Virus record (IMG/VR): IMGVR_UViG_3300043015_000050
Span: 1-31,498 of that record
DNA from: a virus
DNA length: 31,498 nucleotides
Direction: 5' to 3' (one strand)
Position 1 is the stretch's first letter. The number at the start of each line of letters is the position of its first letter. This document shows positions 16,583 through 31,498 of this stretch, piece after piece. The notes under the pieces were generated by a model. It worked only from the letters and a program-made list of their open reading frames with translations. It searched no databases and had not been told where the DNA came from. A program made the position numbers and the translations under genes.

Positions 16583-16692
16583 TTAAAATTCTTTTTTATG
16601 TTTTTGCTCTCTAAGTCTGTTTTATCTTTCATAAAGGCTAAAGCATATAAACACTTATGTATATTTAGCTTAGTAACCTTATCTATATTCAT
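16579..16692 (-). CDS. 37-aa basic ORF between two tail genes
   Basis: ORF MNIDKVTKLNIHKCLYALAF... ending NIKKNFK. Its ATG overlaps the stop of the 213-aa gene (TGATG), and its stop overlaps the start of the next gene (ATGA). Without it there would be a 109-nt gap in a stretch that has no other gaps. The double coupling argues for translation. It could be the short partner of a tail-assembly chaperone pair, but I see no convincing slippery site joining it to the upstream gene. Confidence 0.5.
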   Translation of the reverse strand: MNIDKVTKLNIHKCLYALAFMKDKTDLESKNIKKNFK

Positions 16693-17333
16693 CACATTAA
16701 ATCCGCTAAGTGCTTGTATTGATTGATACCAACCCCATTTATTATTGAAGTTTGAGAAGCTGTCAAGCCCTCCAGAGTCCCCTCCTCCTCCAAATATTTC
16801 GTCATAGCTATCGATAATTCTTTCCCTAAATTGTAAAAAAAAACCATTGAGCTTACTACTGCATCCATAGGTGTATGTATCATAGCGTCATAATACAAGT
16901 CTCCTTTATATTCTTCAATCAAATACTTGTCCCCTACCTTTTGCTTTATAGGTCTGTATAGTACAGCCATAGCTTTGTACATATTGTCCCAGTTCCCTAA
17001 GTTACTATCTAGATCAACATACTCCCCAAAGGTCATATCGTCTAGCTTAGGTATAAAACCAAACTCGGTATCCCCTAGCTTAAAAGTCCTTACCAGGTCT
17101 GGCTGTTTGTTTAGTGTAGAAGTGATTATCTGTACCACTTTCCTCACGTCTGACATCTTGTATTCAACCGCATCTAGTAGAGGCACTCCACAAAATATCT
17201 CTAATACTTTTTGATGCACAAATACATCGCTGTAGGCATCATCTTCATTCACTTCTAATACTTTCAGATACTTAACGTAGTCTGATAGCTTTATCTCTCC
17301 TAAATCATTAGGCACTGTTAGTTTTAGCTTCAT
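16692..17333 (-). CDS. Conserved phage protein, possible tail assembly chaperone
   Basis: 213 aa, mostly helical, with no signal peptide or membrane segment. Notable parts are LKLTVPNDLGEIKLSDYVKYLKVLE at the N-terminus, FGFIPKLDDMTFGEYVDLDSNLGNWDNMYKAMAVLYRPIKQKVGDKYLIEEYKGD in the middle, and a helical C-terminus with TASQTSIINGVGINQYKHLADLM. Similar proteins are common in Bacteroidota siphophages, coded close to terminase or tail genes. I suspect a tail assembly chaperone-like role because it is helical and followed by a tiny overlapping ORF, but this is inference. The TACGTTATATTA motif sits 2 nt upstream of its start. Confidence 0.55.
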   Translation of the reverse strand: MKLKLTVPNDLGEIKLSDYVKYLKVLEVNEDDAYSDVFVHQKVLEIFCGVPLLDAVEYKMSDVRKVVQIITSTLNKQPDLVRTFKLGDTEFGFIPKLDDMTFGEYVDLDSNLGNWDNMYKAMAVLYRPIKQKVGDKYLIEEYKGDLYYDAMIHTPMDAVVSSMVFFYNLGKELSIAMTKYLEEEGTLEGLTASQTSIINGVGINQYKHLADLM

Positions 17334-17360: not shown

Positions 17361-18515
17361 TTAACGGATTGCATACTTACCAAAGTTAGGCTGACTCATA
17401 ATAGAGTAACAAGCGTATCTCGTGCTGTCTATTAAGTGATTATTTTTATCTACTGGTTTGTTAGTAAGCTTTCCACTTTTATCCTCTACCCACTTGTAGT
17501 CTCTAAACTCTTGTATAGCGTTATGACTATCTTTAGTAATGTTTATTTTAAATCTCTTTAGTAAATCTATACCAGCATTGATAGAGTCTTTGCCCTTTAC
17601 ACTAGGTCTTATATTCCAGCCCATTCTTCTTAACTCATCGTTTAGTCTTGGCTCTGCTGAATCAGCATATATTAAATCCCTATCTACTCCTATCTCTTTT
17701 AGCTTCTGGTGTATGTCTCTACCAGTCATCATAGTTTGGTAGATGTATTCTTTTATGTATAAATCATAGCCTCGCTTCCAAACCCCTACCATAGCTGTAC
17801 TGTCATTAGTATAGCCATAGTCTAATCCATAACTCACAAACTCCGCATCGGATGGTACGCTATCAGTCTCATAGTATTTAAAGATAGTTGCTTTACTATA
17901 CCCTCTCTCTCCTAGTCCGTATATCCTCCAGTAGTGTTCGTCTGTTTCTTTTAGTCTCTCTATCTCTTCTATTATACTAGCATCTAGAAACTTGTTATCT
18001 AAGTATGTAGTCTTAAAAAATTCTACATCCTCTCTAGGGATAACCTTGTCATATATCCAGTGATAGAAGTCTGAAGGGTTAAAGTCTATAACTATCTTCT
18101 CAGTTGTTCTAAATACGAGCTGCTGCCAGTCCTCATAGTCTAACTCATTAGCTTCATTAATAAAAAGAAACTCACGCTTACGACCTCTAATCTTTTGTGG
18201 CTGATCTACACTAATAAACTCTATAAGGTTTCCATCTAACTTATACTCGCTATTACTTTTGTTATGGTTTGCTTCGTTGTACTTGTTGTGTATTTTGAGT
18301 ATGTCTATGAAGTCTCTCATTACTGATGACCTAAGAGCTGGGAACGTCTTACGACATATAGTGATGGTCTTACCAGTATGACTTTGGCAATAGTGGAATA
18401 TAATAAAGAGCAAAATGTTATAAGTCTTTCCAGACCTAGTCCCCCCTTGCTCTACTACTATTTTTTTATGACTATCTAAAAGATGCTCAAATACTACATT
18501 GACATTTACATCCAC
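17361..18515 (-). CDS. terL: Terminase large subunit (ATPase and nuclease)
   Basis: 384 aa. Walker A is GGTRSGKT at residues 24-31 and Walker B is FLFINEAN at about 116-123. The RNase H-like nuclease carries Asp residues in GLDYGYTND (about 232), YADSAEPR (about 285) and HLIDSTRY (about 363), as in the Terminase_3/PBSX-type family. It drives DNA into the procapsid through the portal and cuts concatemers. The start is GTG at 18515-18513, overlapping the small-subunit stop by one base (TAGTG). The ATG at 18511 is out of frame. Length is slightly below the family's usual 400-450 residues, but all core motifs are present. Confidence 0.93.
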   Translation of the reverse strand: MDVNVNVVFEHLLDSHKKIVVEQGGTRSGKTYNILLFIIFHYCQSHTGKTITICRKTFPALRSSVMRDFIDILKIHNKYNEANHNKSNSEYKLDGNLIEFISVDQPQKIRGRKREFLFINEANELDYEDWQQLVFRTTEKIVIDFNPSDFYHWIYDKVIPREDVEFFKTTYLDNKFLDASIIEEIERLKETDEHYWRIYGLGERGYSKATIFKYYETDSVPSDAEFVSYGLDYGYTNDSTAMVGVWKRGYDLYIKEYIYQTMMTGRDIHQKLKEIGVDRDLIYADSAEPRLNDELRRMGWNIRPSVKGKDSINAGIDLLKRFKINITKDSHNAIQEFRDYKWVEDKSGKLTNKPVDKNNHLIDSTRYACYSIMSQPNFGKYAIR

Positions 18516-25608: not shown

Positions 25609-26001
25609 CTATAATAACCTTTCTACCAAATCTTGATAGTATTTTATTTTTGCCTCTAATTCTGTGTTATCAATCTTTAAAGTCTCTCTGCTTTTTTGTA
25701 GCATCGCATCAGCAGTACCATCTCCATACTTATTATTTAATCCTACAGAAAATTTATACTGCTCTCCATATCTAAAAACATTACATCCAGCACACTGGAC
25801 TTGACAGTTAGTCTCATCCCATCTAGTACTAAGATGCTTTCTAGACATAAAGTGACCATTCTGTAGCTTCTTCCAGTGATCTACCTTACCACAAGTAAAG
25901 CACTCACTATTATAATTCTTAGACTCCCTAAGCCTAATATACTGTGAGAATATCTTATCTAGCTTATCTATAAGTCTTTTTCTAGTACTTTTTTTAGCCA
26001 T
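25609..26001 (-). CDS. ninG: NinG/Rap-like recombination protein
   Basis: 130 aa. A zinc-binding HNH-like region: CFTCGK (C34, C37), LQNGHFMSRKHLSTRW (H50), NCQVQCAGCN (C66, C70, C73), then GEQYKFSVGLNNKYG. This order matches the lambda NinG (Rap) family, which takes part in phage recombination at branched DNA. It is shorter than lambda NinG at the N-terminus. It is a one-gene unit with its own terminator, preceded by the ACTATATAG array. The family call is strong; the biochemical role here is by homology. Confidence 0.8.
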   Translation of the reverse strand: MAKKSTRKRLIDKLDKIFSQYIRLRESKNYNSECFTCGKVDHWKKLQNGHFMSRKHLSTRWDETNCQVQCAGCNVFRYGEQYKFSVGLNNKYGDGTADAMLQKSRETLKIDNTELEAKIKYYQDLVERLL

Positions 26002-26013: not shown

Positions 26014-26069
26014 AATCTAAAGTTTCTAAAAATAAATTTGGATATTAAAAAGTATTTTCTATATTCTAT

Positions 26070-26159
26070 ACTATATAGTACTATATAGATACTACTCTAT
26101 AGTAGATACTATATAGCTACTTCTATATAGTAAATTCTATATATATAATACTATATAGT
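26070..26159. repeat. Array of ACTATATAG elements (operator or origin candidate)
   Basis: The core CTATATAG occurs at 26070-26079 and 26150-26159 as the full palindrome ACTATATAGT. ACTATATAG is at 26080-26088 and 26108-26116, and TCTATATAGT at 26123-26131. Spacing is irregular. The surrounding 26040-26165 is extremely A/T-rich and lies between the terminator of the RNA unit and the NinG-like gene. Repeated palindromes in an A/T-rich gap suggest binding sites for a dimeric regulator, or an origin with iterons and an unwinding element. Confidence 0.6.
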
Positions 26160-26186
26160 AGATACCATATCTCTGGTACAAGGTAC

Positions 26187-26214
26187 AAAAAAACCCCTAC
26201 ATTTCTGTAAGGGT
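26187..26214 (-). terminator. Rho-independent terminator of the RNA unit
   Basis: On the minus strand ACCCTTACA, loop GAAA, TGTAGGGGT, then a T-run; nine pairs (one G-T) and a GNRA tetraloop. It is the strongest terminator in the window. It would end both the candidate RNA and any late transcripts reading through from the lysis genes. Confidence 0.9.
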
Positions 26215-26586
26215 TAGTTTATAGAATATTAAATAAAAGTTAGGTGGTCTGTTAGGGTGTTAGGCAACTTGATAGGGATGCCATACCCTCGTAGCTATCA
26301 AACTACTTTATTTCTTCAACCTTTAAAGAGAGCTTCTCTCTTCCTTTGCTAATGTTTATTGTCTTGTTGTTTATGTATAACGCTCTAATGTTGTTAAGCT
26401 AACACTCCCATTGGAGTACTGGGCATCTATCCCCCAGACCTTTATACACTCGCTTCTCAAATAATCAGATACTCTTTCAATCTGTTTCACACTCTTGTTG
26501 TTTAACCTCGTATTAATCTCAACGAGCAGCAATTGTCCTTATATTCAATATTCAATATGTCAATTAACGTTGTACTATTTTTTGTA
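26187..26586 (-). ncRNA. Candidate structured non-coding RNA, about 400 nt
   Basis: The unit is bounded by a Bacteroidota promoter (26592-26623) and a strong terminator (26187-26214), in a genome that otherwise codes almost everywhere. Non-overlapping helices are visible. UUGAUAG/CUAUCAA pairs 26269-26275 with 26295-26301. AGAGAG-AAG-CUCUCU is a hairpin at 26327-26341. GUGUAUAA/UUAUACAU pairs 26442-26449 with 26373-26380 and encloses two hairpins: CUGGG/CCCAG at 26419-26437 and ACUCC-AAUG-GGAGU at 26404-26417. A single-stranded-looking AAACAACAAGA occurs twice (26362-26372 and 26493-26503). No tmRNA, RNase P or 6S hallmarks were found. Alternative: a TTG-started 53-codon ORF (26371-26532). 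The late lysis transcript may also contain this sequence as its 3' end. Confidence 0.5.
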
Positions 26587-26591
26587 CACTA

Positions 26592-26623
26592 CAAATATAC
26601 AATACTTTTTTAGTTATAAACAA
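26592..26623 (-). promoter_or_regulatory. Bacteroidota-type promoter (TTG-N21-TATATTTG)
   Basis: On the minus strand TTG at 26623-26621 (within TTTG), 21 nt, then TATATTTG at 26599-26592. The -7 box is a full match to TAnnTTTG and the spacing is within the known range. The expected start site is near 26586. No ATG ORF follows before the terminator at 26187 that could explain it. Confidence 0.75.
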
Positions 26624-26677
26624 ATAATAAACATATTTTAACAAAACTTTAACATTTAGTTGTGCTTGTCTATGTAA

Positions 26678-27163
26678 CTATTTCTTCCAGTGTTTTGTAA
26701 TTTTTTCTGCGGATCTCATTCCGAAGTATCCACCATAAACTAATAGCAGTAAACTAGATAGTAAATCTATCCATCCAGAGTCTATTTTAAAGCTCTCTAA
26801 AGAGCTATCAAGTATTATGTAAAGGAATAGACTAAGCGTTAGGAATGCGAGGCTTAGAGGTCTTATATTTTTACTTAACCAGCTATCAGAGTTCATATCA
26901 GCTACCCATCTCTTAGTAGACTCTTGCATCTCAATCATATCATACCTAAGCTCCTCTAGTAGAAGTTGTTTATCAGTTTCAGATAATTGCTTATCTCCCT
27001 CTATCTTAGAGGCTAAATCTTTTAGAGCATCTATACCAGTTATACTACCAGCTATATCTAGGATCTCTGGAGCTACATCCTTGCCTTGCTTAACTAACCA
27101 TCGCAGTGCATCTCCTACCCTTGTAGTTCCGTTTTTTTCTTTATATGATTTTTTATCTGGCAT
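26678..27163 (-). CDS. Holin-like membrane protein
   Basis: 161 aa. The N-terminal half is soluble and helical (VGDALRWLVKQGKDVAPEILDIAGSITG...EGDKQLSETDKQLLLEELR). Two hydrophobic spans follow, at about 103-120 (RPLSLAFLTLSLFLYIIL) and about 131-148 (IDLLSSLLLLVYGGYFGM), with a basic C-terminus (RSAEKITKHWKK). This matches the holin family with a soluble N-terminus seen in phages and gene transfer agents (3TM holin type). It overlaps the amidase gene by one base. It would let the amidase reach the periplasm. Confidence 0.65.
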   Translation of the reverse strand: MPDKKSYKEKNGTTRVGDALRWLVKQGKDVAPEILDIAGSITGIDALKDLASKIEGDKQLSETDKQLLLEELRYDMIEMQESTKRWVADMNSDSWLSKNIRPLSLAFLTLSLFLYIILDSSLESFKIDSGWIDLLSSLLLLVYGGYFGMRSAEKITKHWKK

Positions 27164-28194: not shown

Positions 28195-30006
28195 TTATAT
28201 AGTTGTTAATTTTTCTAATTCTGTATCACTCAATGCTTCTTTAAATACTGCAAGGCATTTGACGTTTCCGTAGAAAGGGAATGTTCCGTTTCCACTATTA
28301 AAGTCAATATTATTTAAAACACTGTCCGAAAGAACATTTCCAGAACTATCAACACCAACCTCTACTCCATCAACCCACAGCGCAAAATCATTTAAAGAGT
28401 ATTTAAAGGCAATTTTATGATAATTTGTTATAGTTGCTGCAAAAGCAATACTACACTGCGCTATACCGCTAATTTGATATCTTGCAACAATTACACCACT
28501 TGCTTCATACCTCAAAACAACACCATTTGACGATGTAGAGTCGTTTAAAGTGATAAACCTTCTGCCTGTGTAGTTTTCAGATAGAGCTGCAATCTCTGCA
28601 TATAACACACCCTCTGTTGAGTTTATTAAGTCGCTACTGCCAGCATTGTTACAGACATCTGCTAAACGAGTAACTGTGCTTCCGTTTGTTGATATGTAGG
28701 ATGTAGCGTATGATATTGCCTCCACTTGAGCACCCCATAAATATAGACCGCTTGTGCCATCGCCTTGATATGATGCACCTCTTGTCGCAGTTGTAGATGT
28801 TTGCATAAAAAACGCTAAAGTCGCTGTTGCAGTAGATGTGACAGTAAATTTTAAAATACATCTATACCAATCATTTGACAAATATTCTATTTCAGCAGTT
28901 ACAGAACCACCTGTAGCTGACACAACACCTAAATCTAAATCATAATTTGCGTATGATGAAGCTATGTGTGAGCTGCTTGGACTAATTTGCAATACACTTC
29001 TCTCTTTCTTTTTTGCATAAACACTAACCGAGTATGAAGTTCCACTTGTTAAAGTTAATGCATCCCCTATAAAGTGTTGAGCATTAGAACTGTTTTCAGT
29101 TAGTAAACTCGCGTTAATTGTACCATTAGGACTAATTGCAGAATTTGTAGTTATGCTTATATTAGTTTTAGACCAATCACTTTGACTGTAATCCTCTGAA
29201 TACGTTACAAGATTTGTGGATTGATTTTCAAGTAAAAGACTACCCTCTCCGCTATAAGGTACTACTTCTCCATTCTCATAATCAAAGTTAGTATAGTTTA
29301 TTCTTGGTAAGTCTGTATCTGTTACATCTTGTACTAAACCTAATTCGTTTACTCTTGTAGCACTTGAACCTCTTGTAAAGTCAAAGTCTGCGTCTGTTAT
29401 TTTTTTAACTGAAATATTATCAATTTTAATACTTCCTGTTCCACCACTATTCGGGCGTATTTGAAATTCCGTTGAGCCACCACTTGAAACATAGTTATAA
29501 GAAAAACTGCCTGTTGTTGTAACTGTATTGCCAGATGTACCTAAACCAATATGTACATTTGACAAAGTTCCTGTAAAACTTAAAATATCAAATGCCACCT
29601 TATAAGTTCCACTTGTTAGATTTAAAGTTGGGTTTAATTTTGCATATGCAAAAGATGTACTTGTGAATAAAGCGGTTTGGTCTATTTGCCATACAAAAGA
29701 AGCGTTATCGTTGTTTGTTATCCACCCATTAACATTTTCTTTAAACGTACCATTTGGAATTAACTCACTACCAAAAGTTTTAGGTGGTTTAACACTATTT
29801 AATACGCCATCTTCATAAGCAGTAGGTGTGAGTACAATACTTGGCTTTGTGCCTACTCCGTTTAAGAGCTGGTCTGTTACCCAACTGTTCTCGTACTCAC
29901 TTGCTCTTTTATATAACTCATTTGTTAAGTCAGCGTTTAAGTAAATGTTTCCCCATTGTTCGTTAGGGTTTCCCCATTCGCTTCTGTGATATATCTCTTG
30001 TGCCAT
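28195..30006 (-). CDS. Tail fibre / receptor-binding protein, copy B (complete) with LamG-type domain
   Basis: 603 aa. Order: conserved N-terminus (MAQEIYHRSEWGNP, about 1-80); a carbohydrate-binding-like domain (about 85-203, GTFKENVNGWITNN...GTYKVAFDILSFTG); the ATRVN...PRI...SLLLENQSTN motif (about 210-275); a second beta domain (about 275-430, SDWSKTNISITTNSAISPNG to LYLWGAQVEAISYATSYI); then a LamG/concanavalin-like end (about 465-603). The N-terminal part and the 127-bp tract equal copy A (1-730), but the first binding domain differs completely. The likely role is recognition of surface glycans at the tail tip. The previous gene ends 1 nt upstream, so the two fibres are coupled. Confidence 0.75.
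   Translation of the reverse strand: MAQEIYHRSEWGNPNEQWGNIYLNADLTNELYKRASEYENSWVTDQLLNGVGTKPSIVLTPTAYEDGVLNSVKPPKTFGSELIPNGTFKENVNGWITNNDNASFVWQIDQTALFTSTSFAYAKLNPTLNLTSGTYKVAFDILSFTGTLSNVHIGLGTSGNTVTTTGSFSYNYVSSGGSTEFQIRPNSGGTGSIKIDNISVKKITDADFDFTRGSSATRVNELGLVQDVTDTDLPRINYTNFDYENGEVVPYSGEGSLLLENQSTNLVTYSEDYSQSDWSKTNISITTNSAISPNGTINASLLTENSSNAQHFIGDALTLTSGTSYSVSVYAKKKERSVLQISPSSSHIASSYANYDLDLGVVSATGGSVTAEIEYLSNDWYRCILKFTVTSTATATLAFFMQTSTTATRGASYQGDGTSGLYLWGAQVEAISYATSYISTNGSTVTRLADVCNNAGSSDLINSTEGVLYAEIAALSENYTGRRFITLNDSTSSNGVVLRYEASGVIVARYQISGIAQCSIAFAATITNYHKIAFKYSLNDFALWVDGVEVGVDSSGNVLSDSVLNNIDFNSGNGTFPFYGNVKCLAVFKEALSDTELEKLTTI
29265..29391. repeat. 127-bp exact direct repeat, right copy
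   Basis: Identical to 1-127 and in the same frame of fibre copy B. Joining position 1 to 29264 through this tract would give an intact hybrid fibre gene. Confidence 0.95.
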
Positions 30007-30007
30007 A

Positions 30008-30937
30008 TTATGTCATTATTACTTTTTTGATTTTACCCTCACTTATTGTATAAGTTGCTGGTATTGTCGTTATAGTGTTAGTCGTATCGTCTGAAAATGT
30101 TTCTACTATTTCTGTTACTCCGCTTGGTGTTGTAACACTACAAACATCGGCAAACCTTGTTACTGTACCATTTTCTGTTTTTATATAGCTTGTAAGGTAA
30201 CCCTCTTCTACTTGAATACCCCATACATAAGCATAAGCACTATCTGAAGTATCTGAAGCATCAACAGTTCCGTCAGTAGCTCTTGGGCTAAAAAGCGTTG
30301 AAACAGTAGAACTAGCATCAGTATTAAAAGTAGCTGATATTCTTACCCATCCATTACCGTAATCTTCAACAGAAGAGCCTACAACAGTGAAATCACTACC
30401 AGCTACGCTTGTTGTTATTGTATTGGTGCTAAATTGGTATTTTACTTCGCCTCTGTTTGGATAACTTCCTTGTTGTCGTATAGCAAAGAAATCACCCTCG
30501 CCTTTTTTAACAAACATAGAAGTAGTTATGTCTAATTCTTCAACTTCTGATTTACTTGCGCTATCAATAACATAATTTGCAGCAGTTGAAGTTCTTTGTA
30601 CTTTGTCAGCAGTATATTCTCCACTTGGTGCTATTGTTTGGTCTGCAGTTACAGTTGTACTAACTTTACTCCATACTGCATTATTTATTTGCTCTGAATA
30701 AAATTGTCTATTAACCCTCTGCGGTTCTAAAAGTAAACTTGGACAGTCGCTATTTAACCAATCTAATCTTGGGGTATCATCTACTGTTAATTCCTCAATA
30801 AGTCCATCTTTACGCACCCTTGAAGCATTACCATTTCTTTCATAATCAAAATCGCCTGTAGCATCATTAGGCAAAATAGAATATACTTTACCGCTTTTAT
30901 AACCGCTTGGTATTAGTGCTAATTTAGGATTTGTCAT
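30008..30937 (-). CDS. Tail fibre-like protein, copy B (no LamG domain)
   Basis: 309 aa. Residues about 1-255 align with copy A (731-1981): MTNPKLALIPSGYK, NASRVRKDGLIEE...PRLDWLNSDCPSLLLEPQRVN and the following beta domain. Stretches of DNA are identical, for example 142 bp at 30276-30417 against 1314-1455. After TVTRFADVC the protein turns to a short ending (SVTTPSGVTEIVETFSDD...EGKIKKVIMT), where copy A has a LamG domain. Similar short endings occur in marine phage tail proteins. Probably a fibre or fibre base at the tail tip, with the binding domain supplied by the next gene. Confidence 0.7.
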   Translation of the reverse strand: MTNPKLALIPSGYKSGKVYSILPNDATGDFDYERNGNASRVRKDGLIEELTVDDTPRLDWLNSDCPSLLLEPQRVNRQFYSEQINNAVWSKVSTTVTADQTIAPSGEYTADKVQRTSTAANYVIDSASKSEVEELDITTSMFVKKGEGDFFAIRQQGSYPNRGEVKYQFSTNTITTSVAGSDFTVVGSSVEDYGNGWVRISATFNTDASSTVSTLFSPRATDGTVDASDTSDSAYAYVWGIQVEEGYLTSYIKTENGTVTRFADVCSVTTPSGVTEIVETFSDDTTNTITTIPATYTISEGKIKKVIMT

Positions 30938-31044
30938 TTCTTCTCTTTAAATTCTTTGTAAAACCTTTTTGCCTCTTTTTCGCTTTTGCTCTCTATGTAC
31001 TGCTTTAGCTTGTTAAGGTTTATTTCTTTTACTTTATACTTCAT
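30934..31044 (-). CDS. Lys-rich 36-aa peptide, copy B
   Basis: MKYKVKEINLNKLKQYIESK... ending FKEKK. Homologous in pattern and place to the 24-aa peptide at 1978-2052. It overlaps the adaptor stop by one base and the fibre start by ATGA. Presence in both modules, with the same couplings, supports a real gene. Function unknown. Confidence 0.6.
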   Translation of the reverse strand: MKYKVKEINLNKLKQYIESKSEKEAKRFYKEFKEKK

Positions 31045-31498
31045 TACAGCACCCATCCTTTAAAAGTTGTATCACTATCTGGGCTAATATCCTCGTTAGT
31101 GTTGCTTAAATACTCTGGAAATAAGTTATTGTTAAAACATAAATAGTCTACTAATCGTGTTGAGTAGTAGTTTGCGTATTCCCTTGCTTTTCCAACTAAA
31201 TAATCTACCTCGTTTTTGTCTACGTTCTGCGCTGTTTCGCTGCTGTGTTTAAGTACAGATTTATTTGTAATTGTATACGCTGCAAATGGTATGTAATTCA
31301 TCTGCGCAAACCAAATCAATGTTGGCTGAACGTATGTGTTTACCAATGTCAAATAATCGCCACTTAATGTATCAGCTATAATGTCAGCACTAATCTTGTT
31401 GTATAAGTCTGTACCTAATAAGTTCTGTATGTCTATTTGCTGTGCAACCTTAACAAATTGTAGCATCTTGTCAATGTCTACATTCCCATCAATGATGG
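31044..31498 (-). CDS. Head-tail adaptor/connector-like protein, copy B (5' end cut by window edge)
   Basis: About 151 codons are visible. The frame is open to the right edge (IIDGNVDIDKMLQFVKVAQ), so the Met at 31466 is internal. By alignment with copy A about 16 N-terminal residues are missing. Shared parts include NLLGTDLYNKI, DTLSGDYL, LFPEYLSNTNED and the final GWVL; roughly half of the residues are identical. A phage needs only one such neck protein, so a second diverged copy is unexpected. Confidence 0.6.
   Translation of the reverse strand, partial: IIDGNVDIDKMLQFVKVAQQIDIQNLLGTDLYNKISADIIADTLSGDYLTLVNTYVQPTLIWFAQMNYIPFAAYTITNKSVLKHSSETAQNVDKNEVDYLVGKAREYANYYSTRLVDYLCFNNNLFPEYLSNTNEDISPDSDTTFKGWVL

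Follow-up and report, generated by a model that had tools for sequence, protein, structure and literature searches.

A covariation-supported RNA family in flavobacterial-type phages, probably carried as an autonomous accessory cassette

Lambdoid morons are self-contained units of promoter, cargo, and terminator that lie between genes adjacent in relatives and are variably present, and the pRNA of phage phi29 is a phage RNA of the head-packaging neighbourhood. GOLLD and ROOL are large structured phage RNAs of ~600 to 800 nt, often found near tRNA islands, with covarying kissing loops and unknown function (PMC12286853). The cabRNA of staphylococcal phages is a structured RNA of ~400 nt which is transcribed inside terS-terL and varies in sequence between phages (PMC10686824). 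The RNA described here is like GOLLD and ROOL in being a large structured phage RNA with covarying kissing loops and no known function, like cabRNA in its size of ~400 nt, its structured nature, and its link to the terminase region, like phi29 pRNA in its head-packaging neighbourhood, and like the lambdoid morons in unit layout and variable presence. It differs from GOLLD and ROOL in its length (~312 to 350 nt across the family), its flavobacterial-type phages, its rrn boxA, its exchangeable slot, and the lack of an Rfam match. Unlike cabRNA, it is framed by a promoter and a terminator of its own, is located outside genes, and is found at other places too, and unlike phi29 pRNA, it is missing from phages with near-identical TerL and has no fixed link to the terminase. 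Compared to the lambdoid morons, the difference lies in the cargo, which is a structured RNA whose leader contains a host rrn boxA.

The window, i.e., the whole stretch of DNA that was analysed (31,498 nucleotides, IMG/VR virus record IMGVR_UViG_3300043015_000050), carries this RNA between a holin gene and a NinG-like endonuclease gene. An earlier note, made from the letters alone, had proposed a 400-nt candidate RNA unit here; what it observed was borne out and its interpretation was supported, although the mobile-cassette nature of the unit, its rrn-type boxA, and its pseudoknot had been missed. The features of the locus were as follows:

26678 to 27163: holin gene, upstream neighbour (phrog_3427)
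26171 to 26673, minus strand: whole cassette (promoter, boxA, RNA, and terminator), ~503 bp, between the holin and NinG genes
26621 to 26623, minus strand: −33 element TTG of the promoter, from sequence, with a spacing of 21 to the −7 box
26592 to 26599, minus strand: −7 box TATATTTG, from sequence, of the TAnnTTTG type
26551 to 26568, minus strand: boxA-like element GTTAATTGACATATTGAA, differing from the flavobacterial rrn boxA by one mismatch
26233 to 26544, minus strand: structured RNA core, from the P1 5' strand (26538 to 26544) to the P1 3' strand (26233 to 26239), from alignment A1 and pair counts
26346 to 26532, minus strand: 5' domain closed by P2 (26528 to 26532 with 26346 to 26350) and holding P3, P4, and the multibranch P5 to P8, from covariation
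26375 to 26447, minus strand: multibranch unit, P5 (26442 to 26447 with 26375 to 26380) around hairpins P6, P7, and P8, from covariation
26255 to 26341, minus strand: 3' domain with hairpin P9, hairpin P10, helix P11, and hairpin P12
26269 to 26301, minus strand: loop-loop pseudoknot, UUGAUA (26296 to 26301, P10 loop) with UAUCAA (26269 to 26274, P12 loop), from covariation
26187 to 26216, minus strand: intrinsic terminator with a GAAA loop and a run of seven T, from its stem-loop sequence
25609 to 26001: NinG-like endonuclease gene, downstream neighbour (PF05766)

The promoter TTG-N21-TATATTTG and the GNRA-loop terminator (a GAAA-loop stem with its T run) had both been named in the earlier note and were confirmed at these positions; the stretch between them is ~370 nt long and holds no convincing gene. 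TAnnTTTG is a sigma-A −7 box type reported for flavobacteria (PMC9723704), and a similar promoter region was seen ahead of most family members. As far as sequence signals alone can tell, the unit has a promoter and a terminator of its own, as expected of a moron. The RNA proper, from P1 to P1, takes up ~312 nt of a predicted transcript of ~400 nt.

The RNA was found in 38 viral contigs, two of which are essentially the window itself; 24 came from a search with the translation of a TTG-initiated frame in the RNA, and another 14 from three DNA patterns of conserved stretches, checked by profile searches. Since the family was seen only in metagenomic viral contigs, the host is inferred, also where the window phage is called a marine flavobacterial phage. 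Cultured phages and plasmids gave only weak, chance-level matches to the window RNA, and cultured phages gave none to four diverged members. A covariance model restricted to the 5' domain (R1; the length of a full model was expected to rule out calibration) had no match in 397 Flavobacteriaceae genomes, nor did a pattern scan find one among 395 genomes of the class, neither set including a positive-control genome. In a pattern scan of genome contigs, all matches among the at least 80 loci listed were chance matches. Scans of the window RNA and two diverged members against Rfam 15 found no family above the gathering threshold, 6S included, and nothing near a gathering score for the window RNA. 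ARAGORN detected no tRNA or tmRNA, and the window holds no tRNA genes. The earlier failure to match tmRNA, RNase P, 6S, or tRNA was thereby upheld. No description of such an RNA family in flavobacterial phages was found in the open-access literature. Within the scope of these searches, the family is not catalogued before and has no Rfam family.

A GGUGAAA..GGUAAGAG stretch forms a junction in RNase P RNA. A GUGAAA motif with a GAAAGAG-loop hairpin in the phage RNA resembled this stretch and was considered, and rejected, as an RNase P-like tRNA-docking module; flavobacterial RNase P lacks the hairpin. RNase P RNA itself was rejected for want of an Rfam match and of the conserved P4-region stretches (AGGAAAGUCC and ACAGAA..GGCUUA), in comparison with flavobacterial RNase P (L425 and L426). 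tmRNA and tRNA were matched neither by ARAGORN nor by Rfam, and cabRNA was set aside since transcription from within terS-terL does not apply. By the tests made, the RNA is not phi29 pRNA-like and is not RNase P, tmRNA, ROOL/GOLLD, or cabRNA.

Folding of the 414-nt transcript gave −102.2 kcal/mol (z = −4.3), with 0 of 100 shuffles as good, and single-sequence folds of diverged members also beat their shuffles (z = −3.8 for L336 and −2.0 for L186). At least six helices had been proposed previously; we drew twelve and one loop-loop pseudoknot. Of the cells at paired positions in alignment A1, which was built from sequence alone, 81.7% could pair, compared to 41 to 51% when the partners were slid by 1 to 3 columns. 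Two-sided changes occurred in 28 of 57 pairs, with 136 such cells compared to 57 in shuffles, and none of 500 shuffles scored as high; these cell counts are inflated, as many members are close relatives. Because MAFFT alone shifts several helices by 1 to 2 columns, P1 to P12 and the loop-loop helix were resolved by hand segmentation of up to 22 members, and a swap control, in which each 5' strand was set against its own and other members' 3' strands, guarded against picked complementarity. Own partners paired at 91 to 100% of positions, compared to 51 to 78% with swapped strands (97% and 87%, respectively, for the loop-loop helix). The contrast was smaller when sliding was allowed on both sides, and the short helices P8 and P9 were weakly supported taken alone.

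The changes themselves were compensatory. P2 was UUGCU/AGCAA throughout, except for UUAGC/GCUAA in L171, while P5 and P6 were built from 7 and 9 different strand pairs, respectively, nearly all fully complementary (for P6, e.g., CUGGG/CCCAG, UUAGG/CCUAA, GUAGG/CCUAC, CUAGG/CCUAG, CAUAG/CUAUG, CUGUG/CACAG, CACAG/CUGUG, and CUUGG/CCAAG). The P10 and P12 loops covaried as UUGAUA/UAUCAA, CUGAUA/UAUCAG, CUGACA/UGUCAG, and GUGAUA/UAUCAC. Nearly all the same helices were backed by the most diverged members (L171, L186, L223, L331, and L336). The aligned sequences thus show a conserved, covariation-supported fold whose helices are maintained by selection. The multibranch unit drawn in the earlier note is real and encloses three hairpins (P6, P7, and P8) rather than two. 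The AAACAACAAGA repeat does occur twice as had been noticed, but is not kept in the homologues and, judged by that comparison, is incidental. Along with the covariation, the lack of a conserved frame and of an Rfam match supports the previous suggestion that a new RNA class is plausible. Of the three outcomes that the note had named as refuting it, absent covariation and a conserved reading frame were both checked, and neither applied; the covariation is strong.

Relatives of the locus were fetched via both flanking genes. In three of them (L007, L011, and L013), with flanking proteins 90 to 92% and 96 to 98% identical to those of the window, the holin-NinG gap measures 174 bp, compared to 676 bp between the same flanks in the window; the 676-bp gap is kept in both contigs with 100% identical flanking proteins. 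The junctions (slashes) are clean, with TAGTTAC/ATAGACA...CCAGAG/ATATGG in the window and TAGTTAC/TATATGG in L013. The cassette is hence inserted between genes that are adjacent in close relatives, as morons are. Since the RNA is also missing between holin and NinG in more distant relatives, gain in the window lineage would be the simplest reading of these comparisons. Inspection of the window junction by eye showed no terminal repeats or target duplications, and an IS605-type insertion at TTAC was considered and found no further support.

Other features were noted around the locus. Before NinG, window positions 26030 to 26170 hold palindromic repeats (TACTATATAGTA, with variants like TACTCTAGAGTA), which also occur in the same gap of L004 to L010 and L040, with the sequence shifting in concert between relatives; these are possible operator or origin sites. 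In L044, L046, L058, L062, and L073, the holin-NinG gap measures 545 to 548 bp and holds other cargo, and among relatives the cargo of this gap includes a GIY-YIG endonuclease-like ORF (called by eye) or small ORFs, so that the gap looks like a second cargo slot. Three tail genes (731 to 1981, 28195 to 30006, and 30008 to 30937) match phrog_5939/phrog_34853 and two genes (2054 to 2554 and 31044 to 31496) match phrog_35048, so that tail modules which are apparently paralogous lie at the two ends of the record.

The RNA sits behind terL in most members, and the TerL proteins can be of different lineages (L191 and L183). Elsewhere it precedes a portal gene (L221) or a terS-like gene (L336, called by eye), lies in the early region (L238 and L329), or comes after a NinG gene (L328), as though placed on the far side of the gene that neighbours the RNA in the window. 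The L186 copy is situated between terL and a phrog_32199 gene, on the strand opposite to both. In the window, terL (17361 to 18515) and the phrog_32199 gene (16692 to 17333) are separated by only 27 bp, and this slot is therefore empty. Among 80 terL relatives, 76 were informative; 9 of the 76 carried the RNA behind terL, and most of the others had an empty slot with a gap of 28 to 75 bp; the RNA was absent also from phages with ~95% identical TerL. The slot also holds DNA methylases (N6/N4; PF01555 in L348, and similar by eye in L351 and L364) and small proteins (L384, L385, and L387, which have no Pfam family, and L409), and these other cargos end in near-identical terminators.

Two apparently non-coding cargos of ~420 bp, in L349 (2421 to 2850) and L350 and in L346 (2838 to 3265), have the same promoter, boxA, and terminator and no recognised gene. 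They matched neither the window RNA family nor Rfam and are candidates for additional RNA families. An optional 5' extension of ~120 to 150 nt was seen between boxA and the RNA in L164, L167, L191, and L331; in L164 and L167, an L346-like element lies between promoter and RNA, and the L346 cargo may be the extension domain alone. In L331 (2466 to 4477), a stretch of ~1.65 kb, with direct repeats AATTGTTTATA at its junctions, interrupts the RNA within P5 and contains several small ORFs separated by TTGTTTATAACG-like repeats; this arrangement suggests a cassette array or an integron-like insertion.

The boxA copy of the window is the sole match within 3 mismatches in 31.5 kb, with 0.05 expected. 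A variant of GTTCATTGACATATTGAA stands between promoter and P1 in most members; the element scored 14 to 18 of 18 within 40 nt in 17 of 21 members, 15 of 18 and displaced far upstream in L191, and was weak, with the GTTCATT core only, in L172, L177, and L186. In flavobacterial rRNA operons (L427 to L432), the 18-mer occurs in the rrn leader, as GTTCATTAACATATTGAA 147 nt upstream of 16S in one genome with several copies, and in the 16S-23S spacer (ITS), as GTTCATTGACATATTGA[AG] in three genomes. The rrn form GTTCATT[GA]ACATATTGAA is identical to the 18-mer of some members and differs from the window copy at one position; with its leader position, the phage element therefore qualifies as an rrn-type boxA. 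Among the slot cargos, boxA was restricted to the apparently non-coding ones (12 of 18 in L346 and 14 of 18 in L349), whereas four protein cargos lacked it (8 to 9 of 18, the chance level). As boxA is a NusB-NusE site proposed to shield rRNA transcription from Rho (PMC4807359), the match suggests that the phage probably borrows host rRNA antitermination to make a long RNA that is not translated. The 18-mer is held in common with the rRNA operons, but the phage copy precedes a phage RNA and its function there is inferred.

Several other explanations were weighed. The only long reading frame in the RNA (53 aa, TTG start, 26371 to 26532) could mark a gene for a small protein that starts at a codon other than ATG; it is open in the window and the near-identical L161, and its translation retrieved the family. 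However, every other aligned member has 1 to 7 stops in it, most with frameshifts, and compensatory changes run throughout the helices. No reading frame is kept among the aligned homologues, and the longest ATG frame has 10 aa in the window RNA (0 to 19 aa across aligned members), in agreement with the earlier note, which had seen no ATG gene; a protein gene can hardly be upheld. A cis-acting leader or trailer of a neighbouring gene (riboswitch, attenuator, or 3' UTR) would fit an intergenic element mostly on the same strand as its neighbours. Its own promoter and terminator, its many different neighbours, its antisense orientation in L186, and its movement as a unit make this very improbable. 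A packaging-motor RNA working with the terminase, as in phi29, would explain the usual place directly behind terL, and other members lie before portal or terS. Yet most relatives with ~95% identical TerL lack the RNA, unrelated cargo occupies the same slot, in L186 the RNA runs antisense to terL, and in the window the two lie far apart, so that the obligate motor association of a phi29-type pRNA is not met; given the presence/absence pattern, a terminase partner is improbable.

The covarying loops also allow an ornate RNA of the ROOL/GOLLD kind, whose P10 and P12 loops would pair between molecules to build a multimer, and the quaternary kissing loops of ROOL and GOLLD (PMC12286853) offer a precedent. 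The RNA is, however, about half their size, no ROOL or GOLLD covariance model matched in the Rfam scans, the window lacks tRNA genes, and the loop-loop contact can equally be intramolecular; we regard a multimer as unlikely, without dismissing it. Absence from close relatives and presence at many places might instead reflect a mobile element, either a remnant or a non-autonomous one, spreading by its own ends without any function for the phage. Against this stand the unremarkable window junction, the selection on the helices, and the constant flanks at terL, which better fit homologous recombination, and we hold such an element to be rather improbable.

We consider it likely that the locus is an autonomous accessory, moron-type phage RNA cassette. 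Because the RNA is independent of position and strand and has its own signals, action in trans is the simplest inference. Transcription (without transcript data), action on the host, and benefit to the phage are likewise inferred. In the proposed course of events, the host sigma-A promoter would start a transcript near 26587, the rRNA boxA copy would presumably load Nus factors so that the long untranslated RNA is neither terminated by Rho nor misfolded, and the ~312-nt RNA would fold into a 5' domain (P2 to P8) and a 3' domain (P9 to P12) with the loop-loop pseudoknot, the strong terminator closing the unit ahead of the next gene. The RNA would then act in trans on a host function. Since DNA methyltransferases and small unknown proteins occupy the same slot, the RNA would most likely serve as an accessory factor that counters defence or modulates the host; a specific counter-defence role, inferred only from this company, is a tentative suggestion that may well be wrong. 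A broader conjecture, speculative and rather doubtful, is that flavobacterial phages have a standard slot in which unrelated boxA-headed structured RNAs (the window family and the L349 and L346 types) replace small anti-host protein genes and serve as counter-defence agents.

Only a few phage RNAs are known to be this complex, and for most of them the function is unknown. If working, a boxA ahead of a phage non-coding RNA would explain how a long untranslated RNA escapes Rho, and the combination of promoter, boxA, and no frame gives a search handle for further such RNAs. The RNA is probably an optional tool used inside the host, and with a supported fold, near-identical phages with and without it, and an exchangeable slot, its role is directly testable.
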